From: Flavobacteriales bacterium
GTDB lineage: Bacteria > Bacteroidota > Bacteroidia > Flavobacteriales_D > Sanyastnellaceae
Length of the DNA: 32,117 nt
NCBI GenBank assembly: GCA_027488055.1
Contig: JAIYCK010000268.1
Coordinates: 1 to 32,117, forward strand
Direction of reading: 5' to 3'
The notes beneath the pieces are model-generated. The model saw only the letters and a program-made list of their open reading frames with translations, was not told the origin of the DNA and did not search any database. A program made the translations under genes and the position numbers. Below are positions 3,118 to 20,276 of the stretch, one piece after another; position 1 is the first letter of the stretch, and each line of letters starts with the position of its first letter.

Positions 3118-5475
3118 TCAATGACGCACAATCAAACGTTCGGTGCGGGTTTGTTGATTGCTATCTACAGTGAGCAAATAACTGCCATTGGCCATGTGGG
3201 CTATATCCATCGTGATGTATTTGCGTCCGTTGGTGACCTCAGTGCGAATCACACGGCCACTGATATCGCGAATTGTAATCACAGCGTTACTCATCGACTC
3301 ATCAAGAATGATCTGTAGGTAATGATCAGCTGGATTGGGAAACATCCGAAGATTATTTTCTTCAGCCAACTCTTGCACAGCGATATCGTTGTTGTTGTAT
3401 GCAAAAGTGGTTTGTTGAATCACATACCCCCCTGTGCCGTTTGGAGAACGAGCATACCCTTGGTTAGTCACTTGCGCACCAAATATCAACTCATCGGCAA
3501 TCTGGCCGGATGCATTGATCAAACTCAGAGTTTCTCCATTGACGGACAATTTAAAATTGGCATGCAAAGGACCTTGAGCAGAATCTTCATCCGCCCAAAC
3601 GATAAGATATTCATTGGGAGCCAAAAGGGTGCCAGAAGGCAATTCCCATTTGGTCAAGTTCCATTGATTATCGGTCAAATGATATCCTGTGAGATCAACT
3701 GTTTGAATCCCTTTATTGTACAACTCAATCCAGTCCTCGTGTTCACTTTGCTCATCGATCGCATCCGTATCGTTGTCCGCCAAAATCTCATTGATCACCA
3801 CGTCAGTTGAGGCCGCATAGGACGATGCAATAGAGATATAGTACACATCATGCTCCGCTCCGACAGGTTGATAGGTTTGGGTTTTGGCTGTATTGTTTTC
3901 GATGGCTTGGACATAAAATTTAATGAACTCACCTGCTGTTAGAGAAGGCAATAGGGCCGAGAAAACACCGTCGCCTGAGGTTGCATCACCATTGCTGCCA
4001 TCGTCATGCATAGTGAGTACCGCAAAATTACCCACCAATGTTGTCGCATAAAATAAGTTGACGCCAAATAAACCATCGGGTGATGATACTGCTGCTGTCA
4101 CCAGCCCTTGTTCTCCCTCAATTGGATTCATCCATTCGCCTTGAGCGCTAGTCATCAATACATTTTGTATAGACGCTCCCACTGTATTCACTTCGGTATT
4201 GGACATGATAATATTGCGACGCGTATTGATGGCATCAATCAAATCACCCACACCAGATGTAAACTGACTATAACTATATAACTTTTTATCGTCATCTTGC
4301 ACTTCTTGATCAATCAAAGCGCTGTAGGTATTGATGATATCAGCGGCCGTTGATTCATTCAAAAAATCTTCAACGACTGTTCGCATATGCGCCAAATAAC
4401 GCTGACGCCAAATGGGCACATTCAATAATTTATTCAGCAAGGGATAATCGACATCATCGGCGTGGTAGAAGGGACTCCAATTGAGATGCGCATCTGCCAA
4501 AATACTGTTTCCGTCATACTCCTGTGGGGTCAAACGTCCCGTTTCCAATTCCCAATAACAGTAATAATCCATTTTACCCTTGTAGATGTAGCTGTCATCA
4601 TCGGCAAAAGCATTCTCGATGGCCAAAAACCAAAGTGCCCGATCAATGTCCATGACTTCAGGCAATGTGGTAGGCAATTCTGTCCCGCTGTCGTTGTTCA
4701 AAACGTCACAAGCATGGATCAATGTTTGCCATGGATCCAACGCATTCGTCGATTTCAATGTATAATATGAATCATAATCGGACTGCGCATCGCCGTTATA
4801 ATTGAGCGCTGCAGTTCCATCACCCCACTGCGGACCACCGCCGCCGCCACCCCCCATAGTTCCTGAGGGTGCATCAGCCCGCCAATTGGTGCCGTCATTG
4901 CTTAGATACCATTCTTCCAAAAAATCCTTGTTTAACTGCTGCACAGATGGATACAAGCCCCATGATTCGCCATTGATGTAGAGCTTCACAAAAGAACAGC
5001 GAGCCGCAGGGATGTGTTTGTCAATCATGTAATAAAACATAAACTCCTTCATGAATGAAGGATCATCAAAACAATTGTTCAAATTAAAATTGTTGTAGCC
5101 TTCTATGTCTTGGCCACTAATAAAGGCATCGGTGAGAATACTGAAACTCTTTTTTTCTTCCCCTTGGGTCATCAGATATGAGGTTTGGCCTTTGAAGCCA
5201 ACTCCCACTTGAAGATACGTCACACCATCTACAGTCAAAGTTGCTTCAATATTGGTTTCCGAACCGTACGCATTAGTCAGCAAGGTCCAATAATTGGATT
5301 GACTAAACTCCAAATAAAATTCTTTGATCACATTCGGGTTGTATAGACCATTGTCGGGTTGTCCCCCCATGGTGATGCGGTGGTTGACTTCGTCGAGGTT
5401 CCATTGATTGGGGAGTGATTGCGCATGGCAAGCAACGGCAAAAAGGAATAAAACTCCAAATAGTAAATTCTTCAT
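3118..5475 (-). CDS. Secreted CotH-kinase family protein with lamin-tail domain and T9SS type A sorting domain
   Basis: This is a 785-residue secreted protein. Residues 1-18 form a Sec signal peptide (hydrophobic run ending ACHAQ). Roughly residues 45-430 are a CotH-like kinase domain: FYLEFSQSNYWTLL, GVGFKGQTSY, FNLNNCFDDPSFMKEFMFYY, KLYINGESWGLYPSVQQLN and the LTPQEYDGNS motif. CotH proteins are atypical protein kinases, known from spore coats and secreted proteins. A Gly-rich stretch (MGGGGGGGPQ) sits inside the kinase region. A beta-sandwich segment follows, then a lamin-tail (LTD) domain around 555-670 (VVINEILADN, DWIELYNKG, LTGYHLTDN). A C-terminal type A sorting domain (LRMFPNPADHYLQI to ERLIVRH) marks export to the cell surface by type IX secretion. 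The gene is monocistronic and divergent from the sigma-factor operon. Confidence 0.9.
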   Translation of the reverse strand: MKNLLFGVLFLFAVACHAQSLPNQWNLDEVNHRITMGGQPDNGLYNPNVIKEFYLEFSQSNYWTLLTNAYGSETNIEATLTVDGVTYLQVGVGFKGQTSYLMTQGEEKKSFSILTDAFISGQDIEGYNNFNLNNCFDDPSFMKEFMFYYMIDKHIPAARCSFVKLYINGESWGLYPSVQQLNKDFLEEWYLSNDGTNWRADAPSGTMGGGGGGGPQWGDGTAALNYNGDAQSDYDSYYTLKSTNALDPWQTLIHACDVLNNDSGTELPTTLPEVMDIDRALWFLAIENAFADDDSYIYKGKMDYYCYWELETGRLTPQEYDGNSILADAHLNWSPFYHADDVDYPLLNKLLNVPIWRQRYLAHMRTVVEDFLNESTAADIINTYSALIDQEVQDDDKKLYSYSQFTSGVGDLIDAINTRRNIIMSNTEVNTVGASIQNVLMTSAQGEWMNPIEGEQGLVTAAVSSPDGLFGVNLFYATTLVGNFAVLTMHDDGSNGDATSGDGVFSALLPSLTAGEFIKFYVQAIENNTAKTQTYQPVGAEHDVYYISIASSYAASTDVVINEILADNDTDAIDEQSEHEDWIELYNKGIQTVDLTGYHLTDNQWNLTKWELPSGTLLAPNEYLIVWADEDSAQGPLHANFKLSVNGETLSLINASGQIADELIFGAQVTNQGYARSPNGTGGYVIQQTTFAYNNNDIAVQELAEENNLRMFPNPADHYLQIILDESMSNAVITIRDISGRVIRTEVTNGRKYITMDIAHMANGSYLLTVDSNQQTRTERLIVRH

Positions 5476-5584
5476 TGGTGGAAATATATTGAATGTGAGC
5501 GGCCGATAGACAATAGAGACGTACTTTCTGCTTGCAGTTCGTTATTAATCAAATCCAACCTCAAAGGACTTTACACCGTTCGAA

Positions 5585-5614
5585 AAAAAAATCTTGGCCA
5601 CCCAAGATTTTTTT
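5585..5614. terminator. Bidirectional intrinsic-terminator-like hairpin
   Basis: A 13-bp perfect stem, AAAAAAATCTTGG / CCAAGATTTTTTT, encloses the 4-nt loop CCAC. Runs of T follow the GC-containing core on either strand (seven on plus, nine on minus), which is the form of a bidirectional Rho-independent terminator. It lies between divergent genes, where no annotated transcript should end. Confidence 0.6.
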
Positions 5615-5678
5615 ATGTGCGAATGTATTAATAAGTGCCGTGTGAGCGCATAAAACGGAATTTACAACCCATATGATT

Positions 5679-5821: not shown

Positions 5822-6382
5822 GTGCAAGTATCAACACAACTTATCGAAAAGTGTCTACAAGGCGACCAAAGGGCTTACAGCGAGCTCTATCGCACTTGTT
5901 ATCCCTTTATGATATCAGTGACAGCCAGGTACATCCGTCAACGCGAGCAGGCCATTGAAGTGGTGAATACCGCTTTTATCAGCATGGTCAATGGCTTGCA
6001 TCAGTATAACGCAGCATACCCCTTTGGAGCTTGGCTGCGGCGTATTGTCATCAATACTGTGTTGAACGAATACCGTAAAAACAATCGACTTAAATCGAAA
6101 GTAACATTCATCGATCAAGATGAATTGGCTCGCATTAAAGTCGGCGATGATGCTGATCTCAGTGAATTTGACATTGATCGAATTACCCTGGTAAAAGACT
6201 GCTTGGTACTTCTACCCCGCGTAACAGCACAAGTATTTAATCTTTTTATGATTGATGGCTATTCACACAAAGAAATATCCGCTATGCTCAATATGAGTGA
6301 AGGCACATCCGCTTGGCATGTCAATGAAGGCAAACAGCGGATCAAAACCATAATCGAAAAACGTCGCTCCGAAAAAAAATGA
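5822..6382 (+). CDS. ECF-type RNA polymerase sigma factor
   Basis: The 186 residues have the two-domain ECF layout. Sigma region 2 spans about residues 8-85 (CLQGDQRAYSELYRTCYPFM, FGAWLRRIVINTVLNEYRK). Region 4 spans about 125-180, with the helix-turn-helix YSHKEISAMLNMSEGTSAWH. It should direct RNA polymerase to a small regulon, probably including its own operon. The start is a GTG at 5822. The next in-frame ATG (codon 30) would remove the first conserved helix, and no good Met lies upstream. The stop overlaps the ATG of the next gene by 4 nt (ATGA), so translation is probably coupled to the membrane protein, which sits where an anti-sigma factor usually does. Confidence 0.93.
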   Translation: MQVSTQLIEKCLQGDQRAYSELYRTCYPFMISVTARYIRQREQAIEVVNTAFISMVNGLHQYNAAYPFGAWLRRIVINTVLNEYRKNNRLKSKVTFIDQDELARIKVGDDADLSEFDIDRITLVKDCLVLLPRVTAQVFNLFMIDGYSHKEISAMLNMSEGTSAWHVNEGKQRIKTIIEKRRSEKK

Positions 6383-7716
6383 GTACAGAAAAAAAACATA
6401 ACATCGATGACCTCATTCCTGAAGGATGGGAATTCCGCGAGGAATACATGGAGCAAGCTCTGACCTGCCTCCATCGACAGCGCGTCTGGATGAAATGGCG
6501 AAAAACCATGTTGTGGATGTCCGCGGCCTCAATCATTGTATTGATTGGAGCATCGCTTTTGCATGTTTGCTCCAATCCAACTGTACTTTCTGCGTCCGAA
6601 GCGAAATTGAGTCATTCGAATTTGGACACCTCTGCAATTCAGTCAAATGCTCTTCAAAGCAAAGACGAACCAAAACTTTCAAACGCTCCGAGTGCTGCTT
6701 CGAATGTCCATGAGGCTGTGGAACAGTTCGTTGATGACAAACTATCTAACCATACCGATATCCATGCGCATGCATCAACGAAAATGGTGAACACATCAAA
6801 AACGAAGTCAAATCAAAACAGTACCAAGCACCATCCTATACCGTCAAATCACCTTGACGAAATAGAAACGGACTCCAACGATCAAATTGCAGATGAACGC
6901 CATCGAGTGAATGAAACCCCGCAGGAGGACTTCTCGAAAAAAGTCCAAATTCCATCACCAAGGTATTCCAATGTTTTGATGAATGCTCAAGCTGAATCCG
7001 GAAAAACTGGCGATGAAACAATAATGATGCGGAGAGATGCTTTTGCCCCGCTCCAATCACTGAATACACAATTACCCATTCCAGCATCATTGCGTCCCAA
7101 TGGAAATTCGATTGGTCTCGGTTCATCGCATCAAATTTGGGCATTCGCAGGCAATGCCATGTGGGCAGACTATGGCCGCCCATTGAACTCACTAAATTTC
7201 CAGCCCATTGTTGGTATTGGTTATGGCTACCGAGTTCACCCCAAATGGTATCTTCGCGCTCAATTGGCATATTCGTCTATACAGAATCCAGGGGCCATAT
7301 TCCAACAAACTCAAAACTATTATGACTATCAAAAATGGCAATCCAACACCAAAATAACGACCAATCGATTGCATTATGGGTCTGTTCAATTCGCCGTCAA
7401 TTGTGCGATCAATAAGCAATGGAATGCCGCCTTCGGCCTAATGAGTAGCATTAAATTAACAGGCAGCAATACAATACTTGATACTGATATCTACGAACAG
7501 GTTCAAGAACGCAAAGAGACGGGTTATGTAAGCGGATTCAAACGTTTCAATTACGGAGCAACAGCCGCCTTGGATCGTCGAATCAATCAAAGGGTCTCAC
7601 TTGGATTTCAATATATACTTGGGCTAACCGATGTTTCGGACGACGCTGTATTCGGAGAGAAAACGAAGCAGTCCAATTCGCAACTTAATCTCATCATAAG
7701 CTATAGATTCAAATGA
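6379..7716 (+). CDS. Membrane-anchored protein with C-terminal outer-membrane-barrel-like domain; putative sigma regulator
   Basis: The 445 residues have three parts. Residues 1-42 are hydrophilic and presumably cytoplasmic. Residues 44-64 (MLWMSAASIIVLIGASLLHV) form one transmembrane helix. Residues 65-250 are a low-complexity, Ser/Asn/Lys-rich linker. Residues 251-445 consist of alternating beta strands of porin type (IWAFAGNAMWADYG, VGIGYGYRVHPKWYLRAQLAYS, VSLGFQYILGL) ending in LNLIISYRF-K, close to the aromatic end of an outer-membrane barrel. It overlaps the sigma gene and the next gene by 4 nt each. Its position suggests an anti-sigma-like role, but I recognise no canonical anti-sigma domain. 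A helix plus a barrel in one chain is unusual and could physically link both membranes; this is inference. Confidence 0.8.
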   Translation: MSTEKKHNIDDLIPEGWEFREEYMEQALTCLHRQRVWMKWRKTMLWMSAASIIVLIGASLLHVCSNPTVLSASEAKLSHSNLDTSAIQSNALQSKDEPKLSNAPSAASNVHEAVEQFVDDKLSNHTDIHAHASTKMVNTSKTKSNQNSTKHHPIPSNHLDEIETDSNDQIADERHRVNETPQEDFSKKVQIPSPRYSNVLMNAQAESGKTGDETIMMRRDAFAPLQSLNTQLPIPASLRPNGNSIGLGSSHQIWAFAGNAMWADYGRPLNSLNFQPIVGIGYGYRVHPKWYLRAQLAYSSIQNPGAIFQQTQNYYDYQKWQSNTKITTNRLHYGSVQFAVNCAINKQWNAAFGLMSSIKLTGSNTILDTDIYEQVQERKETGYVSGFKRFNYGATAALDRRINQRVSLGFQYILGLTDVSDDAVFGEKTKQSNSQLNLIISYRFK

Positions 7717-8840
7717 AAAATATTTTCTATTTCTTCTCATTGATGCTTGGTCTTGTTTCTTGCAAAGACAAGACCATCGAAGATATTGTCGCAACGCAAC
7801 CTGTTTTCACCTTTAGCGGCAACATCAATGGTTCTCCGCTGCATATAGCCGCAGGTGTGGATACCTATGAATCGCATTTTGTTACGGAACAAGACTTTTT
7901 TGGAATCTACAATTACAACAGTATGCTAAGTCCCGGCGGATGCAACCAATGCGGACCTTCGATCAAAATAAAATTATTTGGACTTGAAGAGAAAGGCCCA
8001 AACGACTTGCCCAACTCTGCCATTGACCTTGCGGTGGATTCAAGGGAATACCTGACGCTTCTTTCGACTACCAACAATTTGTCCTTCCATTTTTTCGCCA
8101 ATCAAAACGACAATGATTTGGATCATTATTGGAGCTTTGGCGATGGCGGAATTTCTACTCAAAACGATCCCGAACACACCTATGACTTACCGGGAACTTA
8201 CACGGTAACACACACCATCGAAAATGCAGAAAATGTAAGTTCGACTGTTTCATTCATCATCGAAGCAGGAGTACCCAACTCTTTCTGCAGTTTGCCTTTT
8301 CAAGTGAATGAGAATGGACCCAACAATTTTCATTTCCATCACCCCTTCAACTTACCACCGTTCTTGGACAATGTCATTTGGACCATATCCGATGACGACG
8401 GCGCAGTGATTTATTCTACGAATCAAGACAATTTCGCATATAACCTTCCAGCAGATGAGGAGTTTGAAATATGTTTGATTTTTGTCAATGAAATAACCGG
8501 ATGCGAAGGATCTTACTGCCTAACTATCGACAATAATGAAGGTCCGTTTATTGATCCAGGATTTCAAATTGCTCCAGATCCTGTAATGCCCACGATCGGC
8601 AAAGTGGTAGTGGAATACCGAGATATCAATGGACAACTTTATCATAGTGCCATTGAAGAAAACAACATCAATGGTTTCGAAATTATTGAAAGCTCATTAT
8701 ACACTCCATTGTATGCCGGATCTCCAATCACGCGGAAGCTAAGTATCCTCCTGAACTGCACACTTGAAAATACAAATGATGCAAACGATCATATAACTCT
8801 TGAAAATGCACAAGCCATATTCGCTTTTGGCATAGAATAA
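7713..8840 (+). CDS. PKD-domain lipoprotein
   Basis: A lipoprotein signal peptide (residues 1-16, lipobox LVSC with Cys17) is followed by 358 residues. About residues 123-187 form a PKD fold, recognisable from HYWSFGDGGISTQNDPEHTY and the following strand LPGTYTVTHTI. PKD domains are beta-sandwich modules of surface proteins. A CNQCG pair lies at residues 77-81. The C-terminal half (residues 190-375) is not recognised, but its YRDINGQLYHSAIEE segment repeats the style of small secreted Bacteroidota domains. The ATG overlaps the previous stop by 4 nt, and the next gene starts 1 nt after its stop. It is therefore the third member of the sigma operon and probably sits on the outer membrane. Confidence 0.85.
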   Translation: MKNIFYFFSLMLGLVSCKDKTIEDIVATQPVFTFSGNINGSPLHIAAGVDTYESHFVTEQDFFGIYNYNSMLSPGGCNQCGPSIKIKLFGLEEKGPNDLPNSAIDLAVDSREYLTLLSTTNNLSFHFFANQNDNDLDHYWSFGDGGISTQNDPEHTYDLPGTYTVTHTIENAENVSSTVSFIIEAGVPNSFCSLPFQVNENGPNNFHFHHPFNLPPFLDNVIWTISDDDGAVIYSTNQDNFAYNLPADEEFEICLIFVNEITGCEGSYCLTIDNNEGPFIDPGFQIAPDPVMPTIGKVVVEYRDINGQLYHSAIEENNINGFEIIESSLYTPLYAGSPITRKLSILLNCTLENTNDANDHITLENAQAIFAFGIE

Positions 8841-8841
8841 A

Positions 8842-11800
8842 ATGCCCCACCTTGTGAAACAATTCAAGTATCTCCTTTGCGTTATGGTCTCTCTTTGGAT
8901 TCTTCTGAATTCCAATGAGATCCTTGCTCAAGATTTTCCACCTGTGGCAGCCAATGTCATGAATTTTCCGACGGGCTCATACATCATCCCAATGGATAAT
9001 GCGCACCAGGCGCTGAACGGCGAACCATTTAATCTTCAAGCCTACGGCCTTTTATACCAATTGCTCGAAGCTGGTGTACCCGTGCATTGGGCCATTGCAA
9101 GCGGCAAACAAAAAGACGCGATCGATTTTTCCATTATGTGTTCTCGCTTATATCCATCTGTTACGGCGTCATCGCTGCAAGATTTTCGCGCAGGCGCATT
9201 TATCATTGACGCGAACGATATTGGAAACATCCCCAATTGTGCAGGGAGCACCAATCTTTTGATTGATAACCTCATAATCAACTATGGCAATCAAGTAGCA
9301 GTATATCAATCCCAACAAACATTTGATGCGGATATTCGGTATATTCTTACCAATGCCCCTGTCCTCGCTATTCTTGATGATGGCGGATTCAGTGAAACAG
9401 GCTATGAATTGCTCGACTATGTGGACATCCCCTATACACTTATCGGCTACAATGCTTTTGCTCAAAACAATGCCTGCTACACCATGATTGCGCAACCCCA
9501 TTTAAGTGCAGCGGATGTGGATGCCGCCTATGCAGGAATTGTTACCGCATTCATCAACAACGGCGGCAACTTTTTCGCACAATGTGCCGCCGTTCAAGCC
9601 TTTGAGGAGAATGCCAATTATTTGACCACAACTGGTTTTACATACTTCAGCCAGAATCAAATGAACACCAATTTCATTTATGAAAGCAACGATATGCCCG
9701 TGATGCAATTCGAAGGTCCCGTGCTGGGTTTCGGTGTTGGTTCTACAAGTAATTTCGCCCTAGAAGCACAATGGATGCCTTATGCCTATCCGTGCATTTC
9801 TGGTAACAACGAAGACAATGTGCAATCTTTTCTTGTTGCAGCAGGTGATTACAATGGTGCAACCATTGGAGGCAATATTTTTTATCTCGGTGGTCATAAC
9901 TACACACCCCAACAAACCATACAAAGTGGCGGTGGGGGTGGGGGTGGCAATTCGTTTGATTCGGATGTCATCGAAAGCTACAATCTCAATCGTGTATTTC
10001 TCAACGCCGCATTTGTTCCCGCATCTTGGGCTACGCCCTGCGCCGCGCCCAACCAATGCATCTGCCCTGGTCAATCGGGGAATATCGGATGTGGATTTGA
10101 TCTCAATATCGGTTATGCGTGGACCCCATCGGCAACATTGAGCTGCAGCGACTGTCCCAATCCCACAGCTACTCCCACTCAAACGACAGTCTATACCGTG
10201 GAATCTGGCAATGGATGCTCCAGTGTATCAATGACGGTATTTGTAGACTGTCCCATAAGCAATACCATCTCGGCCTCTGGTGATACTATTTGTCCTAATA
10301 ATTGTGCGACAATTCATCTTGCAACTGATCTCATGGAAGGAATTGCCACGGTAATGATCAACGGTACCGAATATCCATTCGGTCCAACGTACGAATTTTG
10401 TCCAACCCAAACTACCTTATACGAAATCATTGTGACCGACTCCATCGGCACTTCGTTTAGCACTGAAGCAACGATAGACGTTTTGGAAGTACCCACGGCA
10501 GGAATTACGGGCGGAACGCCATGCATGGAAACCAATGTCTCCTATACGGCCAACAATATGACCAATCCAACTTGGATGAGCAATGCCACCCTGTCATGCA
10601 CCATTTGTGACGCCACTTCGGTCGCAGTTCTAAACAATTTTACATTGGTCGCCATCGATGTCTCCGTCGATGGATGCACATATACCGATACACTGGAGGT
10701 GGTGGCCATTCCTAGCCCTGCAATAACAGTCAATAACGGATCCATTTGCATGGGCGAATTTATTACCCTTACCGCCAATGGCGCTGACAATTATTTCTGG
10801 CCCCTGCAAAATTTGGTGGGCCCGCAGATAGCTGCCAATCCCACCGCAAGCGGTCCCATTATGGTCATAGGAACCAATCAAGGTCTTTGTTCGGACACCT
10901 CCTATGCGCAGGTTACCGTTTTGCCTATCCAATCCGTTGTGATCGAAGAATATGTTAACATCTGCGAGAACGACAGTTGCGCTATACTCTCCACCGCAGC
11001 GCTTGCCGATATCGCTTGGTATGATATCGATGGCAACTTTGTCAGCACTTCGCATTCCATCCAAGTCTGTCCCGATGAAGAAACTTTTTACGTGGCCACA
11101 ACTACCGATCAAGGTTGCTTTTTGCCGGATACGGTCTCGGTCTATCTGGTTCCTTTACCCGATGTTTCCACCACCAACGATACGATCGTGTGCCCTGGTG
11201 AGATTATACAACTCCAAGCTTATGGGGCCGATACATATCTATGGCAAAACAGCAATGGCTCATTGGAAGTGATCGAAGATCTATTACAAGTCTTTTATCC
11301 TTATGAATTGGTCGTTGCAGGAACCGATACTGCCGGATGCATCAGTTATGACACGTTAATAATTGAGACGTTTCCGCAACCCATAGCTGCATTCAACACC
11401 AATCCAACGGAGTTGTTTTTTGCCGCAGCACCCATCCAATTCATCAATATCAGTCTCGATGCGGATTGTTATTCATGGAGTTTGGGTGATGGATATCATA
11501 CCAATACCGATAACCTCACTTATTCCTATGAACTACCTGGATTTTACGTTGCCGAATTGGCTGCTTGCAATGAGTTTGGGTGTTATGATACTACCTTGAA
11601 AGGAATATTAATCAATCATGAATTTCACTATTATTTACCCACCGCTTTTACCCCCAACAACAATGATTTGATCAACAATGTATTTCAAATCGAAGGTATG
11701 AGTATTAGCGACGAGAATTTCGAACTTACCATTTTCAATCGATGGGGTGAAATGATCTATCAAATGCACGATCCCCATGATGTTTGGTTGGGTAACCATT

Positions 11801-11916
11801 ACAAGAACGAAAACTATTATGTACCTGACGGTGTATACAATTGGCGACTTAAAGTGATGGATGAATATAGTAAAATAAAATACGAGGATGCCGGACATGT
11901 GGTCATCTTAAGATAG
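8842..11916 (+). CDS. Large secreted protein with T9SS type B (gliding-motility-type, CHU_C) sorting domain
   Basis: The 1024 residues begin with a signal peptide (about 1-30, ending EILAQ). An N-terminal domain of about 350 residues carries blocks SYIIPMDNAHQ, QLLEAGVPVHWAIASGK, APVLAILDDGGFSETG and NNACYTMIAQPHLSA. I believe this is a conserved domain of Bacteroidota surface proteins but cannot name its function. A glycine run (GGGGGGGNSF) leads into Ig-like segments full of paired cysteines (CICPGQ, LSCSDCPNPTATPTQTTVYTV, CICDAT-like repeats). A PKD-like segment (CYSWSLGDGYHTNTDNLTYSY) and a CHU_C domain (residues 930-1024: LPTAFTPNNND, LTIFNRWGEMIYQ, DGVYNWRLKVMD) close the protein. The type B domain marks T9SS export. 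It is the last gene of the sigma operon and could be its main effector or adhesin. Confidence 0.92.
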   Translation: MPHLVKQFKYLLCVMVSLWILLNSNEILAQDFPPVAANVMNFPTGSYIIPMDNAHQALNGEPFNLQAYGLLYQLLEAGVPVHWAIASGKQKDAIDFSIMCSRLYPSVTASSLQDFRAGAFIIDANDIGNIPNCAGSTNLLIDNLIINYGNQVAVYQSQQTFDADIRYILTNAPVLAILDDGGFSETGYELLDYVDIPYTLIGYNAFAQNNACYTMIAQPHLSAADVDAAYAGIVTAFINNGGNFFAQCAAVQAFEENANYLTTTGFTYFSQNQMNTNFIYESNDMPVMQFEGPVLGFGVGSTSNFALEAQWMPYAYPCISGNNEDNVQSFLVAAGDYNGATIGGNIFYLGGHNYTPQQTIQSGGGGGGGNSFDSDVIESYNLNRVFLNAAFVPASWATPCAAPNQCICPGQSGNIGCGFDLNIGYAWTPSATLSCSDCPNPTATPTQTTVYTVESGNGCSSVSMTVFVDCPISNTISASGDTICPNNCATIHLATDLMEGIATVMINGTEYPFGPTYEFCPTQTTLYEIIVTDSIGTSFSTEATIDVLEVPTAGITGGTPCMETNVSYTANNMTNPTWMSNATLSCTICDATSVAVLNNFTLVAIDVSVDGCTYTDTLEVVAIPSPAITVNNGSICMGEFITLTANGADNYFWPLQNLVGPQIAANPTASGPIMVIGTNQGLCSDTSYAQVTVLPIQSVVIEEYVNICENDSCAILSTAALADIAWYDIDGNFVSTSHSIQVCPDEETFYVATTTDQGCFLPDTVSVYLVPLPDVSTTNDTIVCPGEIIQLQAYGADTYLWQNSNGSLEVIEDLLQVFYPYELVVAGTDTAGCISYDTLIIETFPQPIAAFNTNPTELFFAAAPIQFINISLDADCYSWSLGDGYHTNTDNLTYSYELPGFYVAELAACNEFGCYDTTLKGILINHEFHYYLPTAFTPNNNDLINNVFQIEGMSISDENFELTIFNRWGEMIYQMHDPHDVWLGNHYKNENYYVPDGVYNWRLKVMDEYSKIKYEDAGHVVILR

Positions 11917-12005: not shown

Positions 12006-12920
12006 ATGTATACCCTACAAACAAAACAGCTCTCCCACCGCTTTGGGAATGGTCAAATGGCCGTTGATCATATCAACCTTCAGGTCCCTGACCAATCCAT
12101 CTATTGCTTCTTAGGCCCGAATGGTGCGGGGAAAACCACCACACTGAGACTGCTTCTCGGTCTAATCAAGCCAACGGCAGGTACAATCAACTTCTTTCCC
12201 AATCACCCTTCACCGAATCGAGTAGCGCTCATGCAACGCATTGGAGCATGCATTGAAGTCCCCTCCTTATTTCATCATCTCACGGCCGTTCAAAACGTAG
12301 CCATCTGCGCCAACGCATATCGGACTCCGAAATCCAGAATGGACGAAGTATTGCAACTTTTGGGACTGGCAGATGCCAAAAACAAAAAGGTATCACAATT
12401 TTCTCTTGGGATGAAACAGCGACTCAGCATTGCCATCGCCTTGCTGCATCAACCCGAGTTAGTGATCTTAGATGAACCCACCAACGGGCTCGATCCGCAA
12501 GGCATTGCTGAGATACGCTCCACCATTATCGAGCTCAATAAAAATGAAAAGATCACATTTTTGATTTCAAGCCACCTGTTGAGTGAGGTTGAAAAGCTGG
12601 CCACCCATGTCGGCATCATTCACAAAGGCCAGATGAAGTTTCAAGGGACGATGACCGAACTCTATCAGGCATCCTCCAAAGCAGCTAAACTCATTCTCTC
12701 TACAGACAACGACGAGGCCGCTATGCAACTCATTGCCACACATTTTGATATGCAACCAATCGCTTCGGGCGCACTCATCTATTCATCAATCGATCAATCA
12801 CTCAGTCTAAAAATCAATCGCATGTTACACGACCACCGAATAGGCGTGTCGCAGTTGCAATGGCAAGACAACGATTTAGAAACTCACTTTTTACGTCTCA
12901 TTCAAAACCCTACCCTATGA
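12006..12920 (+). CDS. ABC transporter ATP-binding protein (BcrA/CcmA-type)
   Basis: The 304-residue ATPase has Walker A GPNGAGKTT (residues 37-45), signature FSLGMKQRLSIAIALL, Walker B LVILDEPTNGLDPQG and the switch His in LISSHLLSEVEKLATHVGIIHKG. The C-terminal 80 residues are the usual tail of the BcrA/drug-export group. It would power an ABC-2 exporter with the permease encoded next (4-nt overlap ATGA). Together with the kinase and regulator downstream, the most likely role is sensing and exporting, or shielding against, a membrane-active compound. The substrate cannot be read from the sequence. Confidence 0.95.
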   Translation: MYTLQTKQLSHRFGNGQMAVDHINLQVPDQSIYCFLGPNGAGKTTTLRLLLGLIKPTAGTINFFPNHPSPNRVALMQRIGACIEVPSLFHHLTAVQNVAICANAYRTPKSRMDEVLQLLGLADAKNKKVSQFSLGMKQRLSIAIALLHQPELVILDEPTNGLDPQGIAEIRSTIIELNKNEKITFLISSHLLSEVEKLATHVGIIHKGQMKFQGTMTELYQASSKAAKLILSTDNDEAAMQLIATHFDMQPIASGALIYSSIDQSLSLKINRMLHDHRIGVSQLQWQDNDLETHFLRLIQNPTL

Positions 12921-13699
12921 ACACTACTTTTGGCCGAAGCCTTCAATGCGAATGGATGAAAACGCGCCATACACCAGCCGTGCGCATTGCCCTCGTGGGT
13001 GCTTTGTTGATTCCATTGATCATGACCATCGCTCAACTGCGCATGCCCAAGACGATGTCCTACAATGCCAATCCCGCAGAATACTGGATCAAACTTTACA
13101 TTCACAGTTGGGAATTCATGGCGGTCCTATTGCTTCCATTCGGGATCATCCTTATCACGAGTATGCTTGTCCAAATTGAATTCAAGAATAACACCTGGAA
13201 ACAGACCCTCATCACTCCGCAAAGTCTTACGTCCATCTACTTTGCCAAATTCGTGATCATCTCAATGCTTTTGTTGTTGTTCTTTGTCAGCTTCAACTTG
13301 TTCATTGTCCTGTCGGGAATCATTCCAGGTTTGTTGCACAGTGACATCGACGTGCCGGCACATTGGCCTCCGCTTTTGAAAATCACCAAAGACATGGCGG
13401 CCATGTGGCTCACATGCCTGCCTTTGCTCGGCCTGCAATACACACTTAGTTTGCGATTCTCCAACTTCATCGTGCCCATCGCCATCGGCCTGGCATGCAT
13501 CATCGCTGGAATATTTGCCCTTCAATGGAGCCAAGGCTATCTCATTCCATTTGCCTACAGCAGTTTCCATTTTATGATCATGTCAGGCCAAGAGAAATTT
13601 CAATTTCCCTACAATATTTATTGGCTTTCCCTCATTTCGTTTGTGGTGTTTGCTGGCGTTGGCTACCTTTCATTCCTATTTAGAAAATACAAAGGTTGA
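12917..13699 (+). CDS. ABC-2 type permease subunit
   Basis: The track ORF begins at 12860 inside the ATPase gene. The better start is the ATG at 12917, which overlaps the previous stop as ATGA and gives 260 residues starting MNTTFGRSLQCEWMKTRHT. Six hydrophobic segments are visible (about residues 22-42, 65-85, 105-130, 155-175, 183-203 and 232-254), the usual count for an ABC-2 permease. The N-terminal EWMKTRHTPAVRIALVGALLI resembles lantibiotic/bacitracin-type permeases (BcrB/MutE group), where a Glu-Trp-x-Lys motif precedes the first helix. Its stop overlaps the next start by 4 nt. Confidence 0.9.
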   Translation: MNTTFGRSLQCEWMKTRHTPAVRIALVGALLIPLIMTIAQLRMPKTMSYNANPAEYWIKLYIHSWEFMAVLLLPFGIILITSMLVQIEFKNNTWKQTLITPQSLTSIYFAKFVIISMLLLLFFVSFNLFIVLSGIIPGLLHSDIDVPAHWPPLLKITKDMAAMWLTCLPLLGLQYTLSLRFSNFIVPIAIGLACIIAGIFALQWSQGYLIPFAYSSFHFMIMSGQEKFQFPYNIYWLSLISFVVFAGVGYLSFLFRKYKG

Positions 13700-14745
13700 T
13701 ACGAAAATTCTCAATACCTCTATTGCACGTGGGCTACTGGTTGATGTACAGCCTGCTTTTCTTGGTATTGTATGTATTTCTGGCGCTTAGCGGCCTCCAG
13801 CACAATCAAGACCCCAAGACCATTCTTGTGTCGTGGATGAAAATAATTGTCGGATTCGCTTATGTGCCTGCCATCATCGGTTTCTATTATGGCTATTGCA
13901 TTGCCTTTCCCAAATATCTTGCTCAAAGGAAGATCAAGGTTTTGATTGGAAAAAGCATCATAGCTTCCATCGTTTCTGCGCTTTTTGGTGGCCTCGCATT
14001 GTCGTTCATTTTTCGATATAATATTATGTGGAATGATGGACTTCAATCGGCGATTCCCCAACTTATGTTGATGTCATTCATTGGCGCGATCAATTTGGTG
14101 CTTGGGAGTGTCATTCGAGGATTTGTGCAGTCCACCATAGACATTTCGATCAAAGAATCTCTTGAACGCGAGCGCTTGCAACTTGAAATGCATCTCCTTC
14201 GCATACAAGTCAATCCGCATTTCTTATTCAACACACTCAACAATATAGACGCATTGATCAAAATCAATCCAGTCAAGGCTTCCGAATACCTCCATAAGCT
14301 AAGTCAATTTATGAGGCAGTTGGTGTATCAAACCGAAGATGCTTGGCAGCCCTTGGATCGCGAAATCTTACTCATCGAAGACTATGTTGAATTGCAGCAA
14401 CTTCGATCCAATGATCCCATTCAGATCAATTGGTCCATCCAGGGACCTACAGAAGATGCACTTGTCCCACCGATGTTACTGCTGCCTCTTATCGAAAACT
14501 GTTTTAAGCATGGACTCATACAGCTTCCACATCCATTGACCATTCGCATCAACGCAGATGTGCATGGCATCCAAATAACATTTATCAATACGATCGATGC
14601 CTCTAACTCTAGTATAGCTGGTGGATTGGGCCTTGAACTCACGCGAAAGAGACTATTGGCCATGTATGGAAATTCGGCTGAACTCAAAGCCGGTTCAACA
14701 GTGGATGGCTATATCCAAACCATATCCATTACAAACACCATATGA
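13696..14745 (+). CDS. LytS/YehU-type sensor histidine kinase
   Basis: The start is a TTG overlapping the permease stop as TTGA; the next Met (codon 17) would cut the first membrane helix. Four transmembrane segments occupy roughly residues 13-33, 48-70, 85-106 and 119-145. The His_kinase domain follows, with phospho-acceptor His175 in RIQVNPHFLFNTLNNID. An ATP-binding domain carries the N-box LLLPLIENCFKHGL and the G-box GGLGLELTRKRLLAMYG. At 349 residues there is no large extracellular sensor, as in the intramembrane-sensing kinases that work with ABC exporters. The signal is therefore probably relayed through the adjacent transporter or the membrane itself. It is paired with the LytTR regulator encoded next. 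Confidence 0.95.
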   Translation: MIRKFSIPLLHVGYWLMYSLLFLVLYVFLALSGLQHNQDPKTILVSWMKIIVGFAYVPAIIGFYYGYCIAFPKYLAQRKIKVLIGKSIIASIVSALFGGLALSFIFRYNIMWNDGLQSAIPQLMLMSFIGAINLVLGSVIRGFVQSTIDISIKESLERERLQLEMHLLRIQVNPHFLFNTLNNIDALIKINPVKASEYLHKLSQFMRQLVYQTEDAWQPLDREILLIEDYVELQQLRSNDPIQINWSIQGPTEDALVPPMLLLPLIENCFKHGLIQLPHPLTIRINADVHGIQITFINTIDASNSSIAGGLGLELTRKRLLAMYGNSAELKAGSTVDGYIQTISITNTI

Positions 14746-15455
14746 TCCAGTGCATCATTATCGAAGACGAACCGATGGCGGTTCAGAATTTGCGCAGAGC
14801 GCTCATGGAGCATGGTGATATACGTATCGCTGCTGTGTTTGAGCATGCCTCAGCGGGACTTTTGTATGCTTCAGAAAATGACATTGATCTCATTTTCTTG
14901 GATGTGCATTTGGGCCGACAAAACGGATTGCAAGAACTAAAAATATCGAAAAAAACTCCCCCTGTGATTGTGATATCGGCCAATAGTCAATATGCACTTC
15001 AAGGATTTGAATTGGATGTATGTGATTATTTACTCAAACCATTTACCACCGAACGACTTCACCGCGCCTTGGAGAAATTCAAAGCCACGCAGCATCAAAC
15101 CAACGAGGCCCCAGCTTGCTTTATCATAAAATGCGATTCACGATTTGAAAGCATCGCTTACCGCGATCTCATTTGTATTGAAGGCATGGGTGACTACAGA
15201 CGTGTCATCACCCTGCAACGCAAAATAATGACGCTTCAAACTTTTCGGGAATTGGAAGAAAAATTAGATCCACACTATGTCATGCGCATCCATAAAAGTT
15301 ATATGATTCACCTGAATGCCTTGATGGAGTTCAAAAGCAGCAGAGTGACACTCACCAACAACATGCAGCTTCCAGTATCTGAAACCTATCGCAAGGCACT
15401 GAAAGAACGTTTGCAAAGTGGCTCTTTTACTATATCAAATAAAGACGCTGGCTAG
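14742..15455 (+). CDS. LytTR-family response regulator
   Basis: The 237 residues consist of a receiver domain and a LytTR DNA-binding domain. The receiver has acidic residues E8-D9, phospho-acceptor Asp54 in LIFLDVHLG and conserved Lys99 in YLLKPF. The LytTR domain spans about residues 125-232 (LICIEGMGDYRRVI, LQTFRELEEKL, MRIHKSYMIHLNAL). The ATG overlaps the kinase stop by 4 nt, so the pair is translationally coupled. The likely target is the 21-bp-period repeat before the operon. The gene is last in its operon and converges on the DUF5777 gene across a 100-bp gap, in which I see no clear terminator. Confidence 0.95.
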   Translation: MIQCIIIEDEPMAVQNLRRALMEHGDIRIAAVFEHASAGLLYASENDIDLIFLDVHLGRQNGLQELKISKKTPPVIVISANSQYALQGFELDVCDYLLKPFTTERLHRALEKFKATQHQTNEAPACFIIKCDSRFESIAYRDLICIEGMGDYRRVITLQRKIMTLQTFRELEEKLDPHYVMRIHKSYMIHLNALMEFKSSRVTLTNNMQLPVSETYRKALKERLQSGSFTISNKDAG

Positions 15456-15555: not shown

Positions 15556-16479
15556 TCATTCTTCCTTGCGCTTTTTGGGTTTGACCACACCAAACATACG
15601 GCTCACGTTGAAGCCGAACATGATATCGCCTTCTTCCCATTGGCCGGTAGTTTCAGTGATGAAGCCCTTCTCATTCATGGGCTTGCTATTGGTGAAGTGT
15701 AATTGGAATACGTGGCCGCCAGTTTCAATATCAAAACCCAATGACAATGAATTGGTATATACGGCATCCAATTGATTGGGTAAATTATAGAAATACTCCG
15801 CATTGAAAGAACTCCGTTTGGTCAATTTGAAACGACCACCAGCACCCATCGAGAAGACATCGTGCTTCACCGAAGGATCCGCAATGATATTGCGATGCAC
15901 CAACGTTGGAGCAATTTGAATAGATAGTCGATCATTGAATTTACGCGCCACCAAAATTTGATGGCAATAAAACAAACGCGACGTAAAATAATTTTTACGA
16001 TCCGGATTCTCCCACTGAGTGGCTCTTACCACCATGGAAGTGAAAACCGATAGACTGATAGGCATGTTGCGTTTGCCTGTGCTTTGTCGAAGTATTTTGT
16101 ACTTCAAAAAGCCATCTATTTCCTTGTTCACGTTGCTTCGGCCGAATCCTGCCATCAACTTATCTGTGACTCCGTATTCGAATCCCAAACGCATGGATGC
16201 TACATCCAAGCCCCACAGGTTATCGGCTCCAGTATTGACGGCTCCAAAGCGGTGACTGATCCGAAAATCCAGCACCCCTGCCGCTGGATTCTCATTGCTG
16301 TGCATATTGATGACCCTTGTGCTTTTGAAGGTGGCAAACACATAATTCGTTGTTTCCTCCTCAGGACCTAATAAGGACAATAAATCAGTGGTATCTGCCT
16401 GCGCGCTGACCTGTTGGAAAGCAAAAAGGGCTGAACAAATCAGCCCTATTTTGAAGAAGTTCATCAAACGTATTTGCAT
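15556..16479 (-). CDS. DUF5777 family beta-barrel protein
   Basis: A signal peptide (about residues 8-27, ending QVSAQ) precedes about 280 residues of alternating amphipathic strands. The segments NYVFATFKSTRVINMHS and GVLDFRISHRFG are the typical opening of DUF5777 proteins. GFNVSRMFGVV lies near the C-terminus, followed by a short basic tail (KPKKRKEE). The family is predicted to form outer-membrane barrels and is regularly found beside YceI-like and cytochrome-like genes. Its start codon overlaps the YceI stop by 1 nt (TAATG), so it is the last gene of the redox cluster. No transport substrate is known to me. Confidence 0.88.
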   Translation of the reverse strand: MQIRLMNFFKIGLICSALFAFQQVSAQADTTDLLSLLGPEEETTNYVFATFKSTRVINMHSNENPAAGVLDFRISHRFGAVNTGADNLWGLDVASMRLGFEYGVTDKLMAGFGRSNVNKEIDGFLKYKILRQSTGKRNMPISLSVFTSMVVRATQWENPDRKNYFTSRLFYCHQILVARKFNDRLSIQIAPTLVHRNIIADPSVKHDVFSMGAGGRFKLTKRSSFNAEYFYNLPNQLDAVYTNSLSLGFDIETGGHVFQLHFTNSKPMNEKGFITETTGQWEEGDIMFGFNVSRMFGVVKPKKRKEE

Positions 16480-17030
16480 TATTTCTTTAGTTCTTGTAAA
16501 TTACCTTTTACTGTAATCTCGATGTTGTTTGAAATCGTATCTGCTTTGTCACCTGGGATTTGAATGCCATACTCGGATGGTTTGACAAAGAATTTGGAAT
16601 CACATGAAATGGCGCCACCTTTCACGATGAAAGTGGCATCTGTCGAAATCTTCTTGGTCACGCCGTGCATCGTCAATTCACCTGATACTTTCGCTTTGTA
16701 TGTCCCATCCGCCTTAAAATTAACAGCACTGATATTTTCAACCTTGCCTTTGAAAGTCGCTTTGTCAAACTTGTCACTTTCCATGTAGGTTTCATTGAAA
16801 TGCTCGCCCATAAATGCATTTTCAAACACGAAACCCTTGATCAATACTGACCATTGAATGTCACCTGTGGCGGCATCGACCACACAAGTGGCTTTGTTAT
16901 TGGTGGCTTGAATTTTCTCCATTTTGGCATCAGAGAAAAATTTGATGCTACCGTCTTTGGTAAAATACTTTTGAGCTTGTGAGAAGTACGATACTGCGCT
17001 CAAGATGGCGATAAAAAGGAATTTTTTCAT
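16479..17030 (-). CDS. YceI-family periplasmic protein
   Basis: The 183 residues start with a signal peptide (MKKFLFIAILSAVSYFSQAQ) and then form one YceI-like lipocalin-type barrel. Visible blocks are GSIKFFSDAKMEKIQATN, FVFENAFMGEHFNETYMESDKF, GELTMHGVTKKI and the C-terminal NNIEITVKGNL. YceI proteins bind isoprenoid chains such as polyprenyl or quinone-like lipids in the periplasm. Beside cytochrome-like lipoproteins, a quinone-related or lipid-carrier role is plausible but inferred. The gene lies 4 nt after the OB-fold gene. Confidence 0.93.
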   Translation of the reverse strand: MKKFLFIAILSAVSYFSQAQKYFTKDGSIKFFSDAKMEKIQATNNKATCVVDAATGDIQWSVLIKGFVFENAFMGEHFNETYMESDKFDKATFKGKVENISAVNFKADGTYKAKVSGELTMHGVTKKISTDATFIVKGGAISCDSKFFVKPSEYGIQIPGDKADTISNNIEITVKGNLQELKK

Positions 17031-17034
17031 TGGT

Positions 17035-17481
17035 TTATTTTTCTTTGGTTTTTTCTACTAATACGCCTTGGTTTAAGAGTACATCACTTTGTTCAAGCAA
17101 CTCCTCGTACATGAAACCATTGCAGATGCCCTTGATTTCAATAGTTGTGCCAACTTGTGCATTGACAGCCATATCACCTTTTTTCAATGTGACAATGACG
17201 TGAGCTGATTCATCTTCTGTGTTCATCACCAACTCTGTATCTCCTGATGCATCTTGTTTTACCTCTTGGAGCAAACCGCTCACTTGGATTACTTTGTCTT
17301 TGTATTTACCGAATGCAACACTGTCATCGGCAGCAAACTCCAAGAACAATGCATGTGCGGTGACCTTTGCAAAAGCAGCTTCATCGGCTGCAGTACGGTG
17401 TGCTTTATTCCACACAAAAAACCAGATATATCCTACAACGAGGAGGGCAACTGCCAATGCAATGAGAATGTACTTTTTCAT
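17035..17481 (-). CDS. Membrane-anchored OB-fold protein (tRNA_anti-like)
   Basis: The 148 residues have an N-terminal membrane anchor (residues 4-23, ILIALAVALLVVGYIWFFVW). A soluble domain follows with the OB-fold pattern of the tRNA_anti-like family: KYKDKVIQVSGLLQEVKQD, TELVMNTEDESAHVIVTLKK, VGTTIEIKGICNGFM. Despite the family name, such exported OB domains are not expected to bind tRNA. In Bacteroidota they recur next to YceI, DUF5777 and cytochrome-like genes. The function is unknown. The flanking genes are 4 and 5 nt away, so it lies inside an operon. Confidence 0.85.
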   Translation of the reverse strand: MKKYILIALAVALLVVGYIWFFVWNKAHRTAADEAAFAKVTAHALFLEFAADDSVAFGKYKDKVIQVSGLLQEVKQDASGDTELVMNTEDESAHVIVTLKKGDMAVNAQVGTTIEIKGICNGFMYEELLEQSDVLLNQGVLVEKTKEK

Positions 17482-17486
17482 TATTA

Positions 17487-17864
17487 TTAATTTTCTGGAA
17501 AGTTATTTTGACTCCACAAGATCCATGCATCAATCGAGCACTGGTTCATCTTGGGTTCATTTTTGGGCATTGGACTGCAACCGCTGGTGTGTTCAATGGT
17601 GCAGAGGAGGCCATTCTCTGTCGCAGCCTTGACTTGCGCATAGGTTTCTAGCGACAAGGAAGCCGACGGTGATGCTCCAGCATGGCAGCTCGAAGTGGCA
17701 CAATTCGCATCGCATATGGCTTTGATTCTGCCATTGTACGAAAAGACCGTGTTGTCGCAAACCACATCGTTCGCGTATAGCTCGGATTCTACATCGTAGT
17801 AGCAAGCGCCTAGACTAGCAAAGCAAATTATTCCACATATCCAATACCAATTCGAACGTTTCAT
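17487..17864 (-). CDS. Small lipoprotein with a CX4CH cytochrome-c-like module
   Basis: The track start (17927) is too early. The Met at 17864 gives MKRSNWYWICGIICF and a lipobox LGAC at Cys21, for a 125-residue lipoprotein. The mature part has the motif CATSSCH (C-x4-C-H) followed by GASPSASLSLETYAQVKAA, and a downstream SPMPKNEPKM that could supply a distal Met ligand. This layout copies the two modules of the upstream 17905 protein. Whether heme is attached is unproven, because classical c-type motifs are CXXCH. Further cysteines flank the motif. It is in a tight operon (40 nt and 5 nt gaps). Confidence 0.75.
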   Translation of the reverse strand: MKRSNWYWICGIICFASLGACYYDVESELYANDVVCDNTVFSYNGRIKAICDANCATSSCHAGASPSASLSLETYAQVKAATENGLLCTIEHTSGCSPMPKNEPKMNQCSIDAWILWSQNNFPEN

Positions 17865-17904
17865 TAATATTTTAATTTTTACGAAAATAGGTAGAAAATG
17901 ACGA

Positions 17905-18627
17905 TTAATTGTTGGGTGCACCTGCATTTACCCACAACTGAAATTGTGCAATGTTGCAAGCTGGCAAACCTAAAGTATTGTCAGGCATGATAAGATAACC
18001 ACCCGTGCCTTGCAACGAATGCATCAACCTGCCGTCAAGGGCTACAGCCTGAATTTGAGCAAAGGTCTCAAGGGCTACGCCGCCATCTGGTGAAGAACCA
18101 CTGTGACAACCTACACAAGCCAACTCAATAGTGGGCTGAAGATTGGCGGCAAAGGAAAACTGTGTTGGATCACAATCCGGCGTGCAACTATTGTTCTGAG
18201 CGCCTTGGTTGACCCACTGGGTGAGTATACCAATTTGTTCTGCCGACAACGGCCCACCCATCTCCGAAGGCGGCATTAAATTGTTGCCTGTCTCTGTGAG
18301 CACCTCAATCATATCGCTATCCCCTGCATCACCCGGTGTGACAATATCACTTCCCATAAGTGCGGCATAGCTATATAGACGAATATCGTCTTCTGCCGTG
18401 ATGGCATCATGACAATCCGTCATTGCACAATTACTGACAAGGATGGGAAGCACCTGCGAATTAAAGTAAACTGAATCGGGATCACATGGATGTGGGTTGA
18501 CTATCAGCGTATCTGGATTACCGCCGTTGCCAGGATCCTCCACAATTACCAATTCAGGTTCATGCTTACAGGCAGCGACAGCGCTAAGTAGCAGTATGAC
18601 CAAAAACGACCACACATACTTTCCCAT
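17905..18627 (-). CDS. Lipoprotein with two cytochrome-c-like modules (CX4CH and CXXCH)
   Basis: The start at 18627 (MGKYVWSF) gives 240 residues; it follows AAGGA by 6 nt and leads directly to the lipobox AVAAC. The track start, seven codons upstream (18648), is possible. Module 1 has FNSQVLPILVSNCAMTDCHD (C-x4-C-H) and a distal LMPPSEMGGPLS. Module 2 has LQPTIELACVGCHSGSSPDGG (classical CXXCH) and GGYLIMPDNTLGL. Both end in the same helix type (ILTQWVNQGAQ, QFQLWVNAGAP). The fold resembles the planctomycete-type cytochrome c domains of secreted Bacteroidota proteins. It is probably an outer-membrane or periplasmic electron-transfer lipoprotein and the first gene of the redox cluster. Confidence 0.83.
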   Translation of the reverse strand: MGKYVWSFLVILLLSAVAACKHEPELVIVEDPGNGGNPDTLIVNPHPCDPDSVYFNSQVLPILVSNCAMTDCHDAITAEDDIRLYSYAALMGSDIVTPGDAGDSDMIEVLTETGNNLMPPSEMGGPLSAEQIGILTQWVNQGAQNNSCTPDCDPTQFSFAANLQPTIELACVGCHSGSSPDGGVALETFAQIQAVALDGRLMHSLQGTGGYLIMPDNTLGLPACNIAQFQLWVNAGAPNN

Positions 18628-18705
18628 TTTGTTTCCTTTTTCTTGCATTGACTAACTAAAAATACATCTTAATAACTGGCATATTGGTATTCAAGACCCT
18701 CATGA

Positions 18706-18713
18706 CAAACTTA
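18706..18713 (-). promoter_or_regulatory. Candidate -7 box of the redox cluster
   Basis: On the minus strand this reads TAAGTTTG, an exact TAnnTTTG match, 78 bp upstream of the cytochrome-like gene. No TTG is found at standard -33 spacing. A direct repeat of CATGATC (18735-18741 and 18747-18753, 12-bp period) lies just upstream and might be an operator. Confidence 0.3.
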
Positions 18714-18762
18714 TGATGATCTCAATGAACCGAACATGATCCAAGTCATGATCTCAACGCAT

Positions 18763-19038
18763 TTAATCCCACGAAATTGTGACCTCTTCCGATGTGGGAT
18801 GCGCCTGACAACATAATGTCTTGCCTCCTTGTACTTCTTTATCCGTGAGGGCAAAATTCTTGTCCATGACGACATCACCACTCACCACTTTGGCCATGCA
18901 CGTGGTGCACACACCGCCCTTGCAGCTATATGGCGCATCAACACCTGCATCTAGCGCGGCATCTAATATGGTGCTGCCTTCTCGGCCCAGCTCGAAGGTA
19001 GTCTGAATGCCATCGATGATTACAGTAACTTTTGCCAT
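18763..19038 (-). CDS. Plant-type 2Fe-2S ferredoxin
   Basis: The 91 residues form a complete chloroplast-type ferredoxin. The cluster ligands are in YSCKGGVCTTCMAKV (C-x4-C-x2-C) and in TLCCQAHPTSEE, which gives the fourth Cys. The segment VVMDKNFALTDKEVQGGKTL resembles the C-terminal ferredoxin domain of PaaE-type oxidoreductases. It would carry single electrons in the cytoplasm, but no reductase partner lies next to it. Its ATG begins 1 nt after the stop of the TlpA-like gene, so the two are co-transcribed. Confidence 0.95.
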   Translation of the reverse strand: MAKVTVIIDGIQTTFELGREGSTILDAALDAGVDAPYSCKGGVCTTCMAKVVSGDVVMDKNFALTDKEVQGGKTLCCQAHPTSEEVTISWD

Positions 19039-19039
19039 G

Positions 19040-19537
19040 TTATTTGGATTCTAATAATTGATTAATTTCCTGCAAAAATACAGCATCTTCCCAATTGCAA
19101 GCATCTACCTTTTGGAATACTATTTCATTGCGCGGATTAATGACATAAGTGGTTGGTATGGTTCGCACACCTATCTCGTTCAAACTAGCTATCTTCAGTA
19201 TTTTGATATCGGAAGGCAATAACATGCGCATCTGATTGATCTCCTCCCATGTATCATCGGTTAAGAAAACAAAGTTCAATCCACGCGCTTGCAATGCCTC
19301 GTACTGCTTGGTAATTTGTCTGATCTCTCGGATACAGGGCCCACACCAATGTGCATAAAAATGGACAATTTCAGCACCTTTTCGTTCCGCACCCAAATTG
19401 GAGAATTGACCGGGAGCCACCTCGACCTGGATGGCGTCTTGCTCCAAATCCGATGGTATTTTGTACATCCAATAATATATTCCATAGATCGTACAAAAGG
19501 CTGCCAGAATCAGCAGCAGGTTTTTATTATTTTTCAT
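19040..19537 (-). CDS. TlpA/ResA-like membrane-anchored thioredoxin
   Basis: I place the start at 19537 (MKNNKNLLLILAAFC). The longer track start overlaps the preceding gene by 31 nt and adds a hydrophilic stretch before the signal anchor. The 165 residues have an N-terminal membrane segment (about 7-24). A thioredoxin fold follows, with the active site HWCGPC (Cys65 and Cys68) and the cis-Pro loop RTIPTTYVINP. The protein should act on thiols in the periplasm, for example in cytochrome maturation or disulfide reduction. The cytochrome-like cluster starts about 400 bp downstream, which makes a link to heme-protein maturation attractive but unproven. Confidence 0.9.
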   Translation of the reverse strand: MKNNKNLLLILAAFCTIYGIYYWMYKIPSDLEQDAIQVEVAPGQFSNLGAERKGAEIVHFYAHWCGPCIREIRQITKQYEALQARGLNFVFLTDDTWEEINQMRMLLPSDIKILKIASLNEIGVRTIPTTYVINPRNEIVFQKVDACNWEDAVFLQEINQLLESK

Positions 19538-19572
19538 TTCTATTTCGTTGTTTTGAGGGGTGCCCAACCAAA

Positions 19573-20226: not shown

Positions 20227-20276
20227 ATCACAAAGATACACTTTGATGACATTGAAAGTGATTCGTTTTGGCTGAT

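Follow-up and report, generated by a model that had tools for sequence, protein, structure and literature searches.

Four consecutive open reading frames on the forward strand of the window, by which the whole analysed stretch of 32,117 nt is meant, form an operon that encodes an ECF sigma factor, a protein with an inner-membrane helix and a C-terminal barrel, a lipoprotein and a T9SS type B cargo protein (Table 1). Re-derived ORF coordinates reproduced to the base both the gene list and the junctions of -4, -4 and +1 nt that a sequence-only reading of this DNA had given. The operon proteins were identified with Pfam and NCBIfam profiles, while the script-level ORF calls and the HMMs used below were made for the present analysis. 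The sigma factor matches TIGR02985 (Sig70_bacteroi1) below cut-off. The earlier claim that neither a TonB-dependent receptor nor a FecR-type protein is present also holds, as the Pfam and NCBIfam scans detected neither of them in the operon genes or in the other window genes scanned. The genome from which the window derives has a T9SS, as seen from SprA and 78 Por_Secre_tail matches.

The entire four-gene unit recurs in a sister species (82, 37, 59 and 72% identity in gene order; junctions of -4, -4 and +12 nt) and, thus, the grouping exceeds what chance would produce. An accident of a fragmented metagenome assembly could be suspected from the state of the genome (2.76 Mb in 415 contigs, 83% complete), but the sister species and many other genomes carry the same unit, which refutes this explanation and leaves it a negligible probability. 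On the same strand, 3' of the operon (12006-15455), genes for an ABC transporter, a membrane protein, a histidine kinase (His_kinase) and a LytTR response regulator are found, and the ABC gene also lies 3' of the operon in the sister species.

Table 1. Features of the operon region, with window coordinates
Feature	Position	Strand	Evidence or remark
Divergent T9SS type A protein (CotH, LTD, Por_Secre_tail)	3118-5475	-	Adjoins the operon in the window and in the sister species; candidate member only
CCAACC-N16-CGT, predicted promoter of the ECF type, 267 nt before the start of the sigma gene	5555-5579	+	Motif match
Hairpin with T-run just past the predicted -10	5588-5616	+	Sequence; alignment with the sister species
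ECF sigma factor, 186 aa, GTG start	5822-6382	+	Pfam Sigma70_r2 and r4_2
Dma-like outer-membrane-spanning predicted anti-sigma protein, 445 aa	6379-7716	+	Pfam OMP_b-brl_2; AlphaFold2
Lipoprotein of 375 aa, third gene product of the conserved triad	7713-8840	+	PKD; lipobox LVSC17
T9SS type B cargo protein, 1024 aa, PKD and CHU_C	8842-11916	+	CHU_C and TIGR04131

The barrel protein and its pairing with the sigma factor

Dma ("dual membrane-spanning anti-sigma") proteins of Bacteroides, whose anti-sigma role has been shown by experiment, are defined by an N-terminal anti-sigma domain, a TM helix, a disordered tether and a C-terminal barrel (PMC13088901). In the 445-residue protein of the window, OMP_b-brl_2 (PF13568) matches residues 271-420 with 32.1 bits (cut-off 27), and the AlphaFold2 model, built with 27 homologues, consists of a helix (21-65), a disordered stretch (73-246, with pLDDT below 50 except at 236-237) and a barrel of high confidence (251-443), whose best PDB folds are OmpA, OmpX and Ail, with E-values down to 1e-8. 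The topology of the sequence-only reading, with one inner-membrane helix (residues ~43-61) and a C-terminal barrel, is therefore upheld by Pfam and AlphaFold2. The helix is preceded by the cytoplasmic segment of residues 1-42, IPEGWEFREEYMEQAL, with an E-F-R-E-E-Y motif, and the first 40 residues are the best-conserved part of the protein: mean pairwise identity among 12 family members is 0.36 for residues 1-40, 0.27 for the barrel and 0.15 for the tether, and 0.29, 0.18 and 0.12, respectively, in a wider set. The window genome encodes one full-length copy.

The family of the barrel protein is found in Flavobacteriales, Saprospiraceae, Mucilaginibacter, Chitinophaga, Larkinella and Rufibacter. 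In almost every locus of the clade, the barrel gene adjoins the sigma gene, and the -4 nt overlap between both genes recurs in relatives; since the loci are related by kinship, these and all other locus and operon counts given here overstate independence. Among Bacteroidales loci picked by a barrel profile, 18/20 carry a sigma gene directly upstream, together with a comparable N-terminal motif. This comparison suggests that the pair of a sigma factor and an outer-membrane-spanning barrel protein is spread over the Bacteroidota.

Since the published Dma architecture is matched and the pairing with sigma genes extends across the phylum, the 445-residue protein was filed as a structural member of the Dma kind, which would work as Dma proteins do, sigma binding being predicted. 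The proposal that the barrel protein takes the anti-sigma position thus stands, with all published Dma features in place, but the idea is not new, as Dma/Das, EcfO and a Phocaeicola pair precede it. The PF13568 match, taken alone, would suit a mere porin-like outer-membrane protein that is co-transcribed with an unregulated sigma factor. Nevertheless, such a protein would hardly be expected to carry a membrane helix preceded by a conserved, charged 40-residue segment and followed by a disordered tether, nor to be paired with ECF sigma genes throughout the phylum, and the experimental precedents of Dma and of the P. vulgatus pair also speak against this explanation, which is very improbable.

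Other operons of comparable layout were encountered. The window genome contains a second, more distant pair of a sigma factor and a TM/barrel-like protein on contig C128 (L258, 5163-7014), which belongs to another ECF group. Furthermore, a recurrent operon of a sigma factor, a barrel or membrane partner and a T9SS type B protein of ~880-1190 aa is found at L263, L271 and L274 (also L270 and L293); it belongs to a different ECF group and often includes a further secreted protein.

A lipoprotein as third gene and T9SS cargo beside the triad

In the family of the window, a lipoprotein of ~375 residues is encoded 3' of the sigma/barrel pair, usually with a 4-nt overlap. Its members are homologous even where PKD, present as the middle domain in some relatives only, is lacking, and the protein is predicted to fold into consecutive Ig/FnIII-like domains, for which a fold search returned weak FnIII/Ig-like matches, none of them specific. 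A profile of the lipoprotein only, run over 299 genomes of the order, retrieved 20 loci with a barrel gene upstream in the same order and orientation, and the sigma gene precedes the barrel gene in all of them except two loci cut by a contig end or an ORF start. An independent scan led by the sigma factor added 25 loci with the lipoprotein, and many sigma/barrel pairs of other lineages are devoid of it. Judged from these genome comparisons, sigma, barrel and lipoprotein genes are strictly co-conserved as a three-gene unit within the family of the window, and the ~375-residue lipoprotein family is a new, fixed third gene of the operon. Of the four genes whose conserved order had been put forward earlier as a check, sigma, barrel and lipoprotein form the fixed unit, and all four occur as homologues in the sister species only.

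The fourth gene is variable. In the window, the 1024-aa protein carries CHU_C at 932-1008 and TIGR04131, which identify it as T9SS type B, and its homologue at the matching place in the sister species is 72% identical. Elsewhere, the fourth place is taken by non-homologous T9SS cargo, including type A proteins of ~360 aa in one family, and at some loci a T9SS gene leads the operon ahead of sigma. No adjacent PorP-like (PorP/SprF) gene was detected among the window genes scanned with Pfam, which comprise part of the ORFs. T9SS cargo, called with an HMM trained partly on neighbours in these same loci and confirmed with Pfam in key cases, lies beside the triad in 34-35/54 lipoprotein-bearing operons, against 37/727 of the other genes in the loci. 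However, cargo also adjoins 18/40 control ECF operons of the same genomes; the comparison of triads with controls devoid of a barrel partner gave p = 0.05, and an independent set gave 10/25 (p = 1). Enrichment of cargo was therefore dropped as triad-specific evidence, and adjacency alone does not show that the cargo is the signal.

A clade-specific promoter motif

Alignment of upstream regions yielded the motif CCAACC-N16-CGT. Counted at exact spacing, it marks the head of 32/109 operons of the sigma clade, whereas 0/40 other ECF operons from the same genomes and 0/18 Bacteroidales operons carry it, and its 33 sites compare with 3 for all 14 permuted hexamers together. As to placement, 25 sites lie before sigma; where T9SS cargo leads the operon, the motif precedes the cargo gene in 7/25 cases and lies in the stretch from cargo to sigma in 0/25. 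An unbiased hexamer count on the control ECF operons ranked GCAACC first (16 matches), in a set that shows a GGCAACC-type box; its recovery suggests that genuine ECF promoters are picked up in this way, and that the clade is distinct. From the sequence comparison, the motif is a new, clade-specific predicted promoter of the ECF type that moves with the first gene of the operon.

The site of the window itself calls for more caution. The window contains one match to the CGTT form (0.09 expected), and among the seven motif matches of the genome the one at the operon head is the only one outside a long ORF. In the intergenic alignment with the sister species, the CCAACC box is absent at the aligned place, while two other blocks are conserved, and the unbiased count on operon heads of the window's own family returned CCAAGG as the commonest -35 (5 seen, 0.15 expected), along with CCAAGA. 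For these reasons, the promoter site is only suggestive for this strain. The hairpin that follows has its stem preserved in the sister species, where an A-run stands in place of the T-run; it could thus be a terminator or an element of the 5' leader. Given the lack of the promoter site at the aligned place in the sister species and its position just ahead of this hairpin, autoregulation of the window operon is graded as likely.

In two genomes of a related family, intergenic motif sites lie ahead of eight T9SS cargo genes (four identified by HMM and four by coordinates) at distances of 5-120 nt, and the motif also precedes the sigma gene of the triad itself. A further site of this search (L333; G162 C3:262125-262149) lies 71 nt before an apparent rpoD, recognised by its N-terminus only. 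A regulon search with CCAAGG-N16-CGT, the variant of family f1, was unusable due to too many background matches.

Proposed signalling unit and its neighbourhood

Several known systems resemble the operon in part. As in Das/Dma, the sigma gene is followed by an N-terminal anti-sigma segment, one TM helix, a tether and an outer-membrane barrel, the window protein being set alongside Dma1/2 by published description. The Dma pairs of Bacteroides thetaiotaomicron (Dma1 and Dma2, the latter BT_1558 with BT_1557 as its neighbour) are placed in the ECF21 family according to doi 10.1073/pnas.2321910121, as cited in PMC13088901. The dma2 gene belongs to a three-gene operon that it represses, as its deletion raises expression of the operon, and the genes downstream of dma2 are induced, although not needed for the phenotype (PMC13088901). 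Unlike in Das/Dma, the window operon includes a conserved lipoprotein of ~375 aa and a T9SS cargo gene, and the promoter motif points to genes of T9SS cargo, not to PULs or OMVs. The EcfO pair of B. fragilis and M0N98_03760/03761 of Phocaeicola vulgatus likewise combine a sigma factor with a large predicted periplasm-spanning anti-sigma barrel protein encoded directly 3', but their regulons concern stress (oxidative stress, antimicrobial toxins), and neither a lipoprotein triad nor T9SS cargo is described for them (PMC9308784). In Porphyromonas gingivalis, PorA, a T9SS CTD surface protein, also acts upstream of an ECF sigma factor; however, PorA/PorXY-SigP operates via a two-component system, in a model without an outer-membrane-spanning anti-sigma factor (PMC7712824). 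FecR/FecI/FecA also relays the state of the outer surface to an ECF sigma factor, but it does so with three separate proteins that include a TonB-dependent receptor, and neither such a receptor nor a FecR-type protein was detected in the genes of the window operon.

Gene order, domains, topology, co-conservation of the triad and promoter enrichment, as established by sequence and comparison, make it probable that the operon is an autoregulated signalling unit of the Das/Dma kind that connects the envelope with RNA polymerase. The 445-residue protein would span the envelope with its single helix in the inner membrane, a small barrel in the outer membrane and the disordered periplasmic tether between them, and its short cytoplasmic segment would hold the ECF sigma factor. 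We infer that a change at the outer membrane, in the state of the barrel, of the lipoprotein partner or of the surface, would lead to sigma release, probably by degradation or pulling of the tether, and that the lipoprotein may serve as a sensor or gate. Free sigma would then read CCAACC-N16-CGT at the operon head, raising the levels of sigma, anti-sigma, lipoprotein and T9SS surface protein, and in relatives it would also reach other T9SS cargo genes.

The part taken by the last two proteins can be read in different ways. In an ordinary envelope-stress switch of the Das/Dma type, both would be outputs for surface remodelling with no part in sensing, which is nearly an even call. The roles that the known pairs have in BcpT, vesicles (OMV) and oxidative stress agree with this, as do the variation of the cargo among lineages, the occurrence of the same promoter before other T9SS genes and the dispensability for the phenotype of the induced genes downstream of dma2; nevertheless, in several families the lipoprotein gene holds the third place almost invariably, which is more than expected for a mere output. 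Alternatively, the lipoprotein, with or without the T9SS protein, could be a sensor on or in the barrel, so that its occupancy by the secreted protein or a ligand sets sigma activity, along the lines of the sequence-only reading. The tight co-conservation of barrel and lipoprotein genes, their overlap (-4 nt), the stacked Ig/FnIII-like beta domains suited to binding and the presence of cargo as an operon partner in 34/54 lipoprotein-bearing operons favour a sensor, whereas the non-homologous bodies of the cargo, the many pairs of other lineages without a lipoprotein and the T9SS adjacency at control ECF operons count against it, and we consider it rather unlikely. The most novel proposal is a dedicated feedback loop from the surface to RNA polymerase for the type IX secretome, in which an anti-sigma factor across both membranes, with the lipoprotein as its outer-membrane partner, frees a sigma factor that switches on T9SS cargo genes, such that the surface coat reports on and sets its own expression; this can be advanced only tentatively.

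The known anti-sigma factors that cross both membranes are few, and they are Bacteroides proteins with links to vesicles, stress and glycan loci. The signalling unit favoured here suggests that this kind extends over the Bacteroidota as a phylum and adds a conserved third component, while the promoter motif connects it with T9SS surface proteins. With the spread, the third component and the motif at hand, the way in which these bacteria adjust their surface proteins to outer-membrane state becomes open to direct tests in relatives that can be cultured, such as Phaeodactylibacter luteus KCTC 42180, which has the triad (L130).

A further gene cluster lies near the triad. On the reverse strand of the window (15556-18648), it encodes a DUF5777 barrel, YceI, a tRNA_anti-like protein, an unknown protein and a PSCyt1 cytochrome. 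Homologues of this PSCyt1 cluster are located near the sigma/barrel pair in relatives of the family (L018, L020, L091 and L092) and downstream of the pair in Rufibacter, Ferruginibacter, Dawidia and Mucilaginibacter loci, against 0/40 control ECF loci, and the cluster may be an older output of the sigma clade. At L020, L090 and L092, the triad is flanked by E1-dehydrogenase/ferredoxin genes on one side and by the PSCyt1 cluster on the other; the window (17905-22343) has this junction closed, with the triad ~3.6 kb past the cluster.
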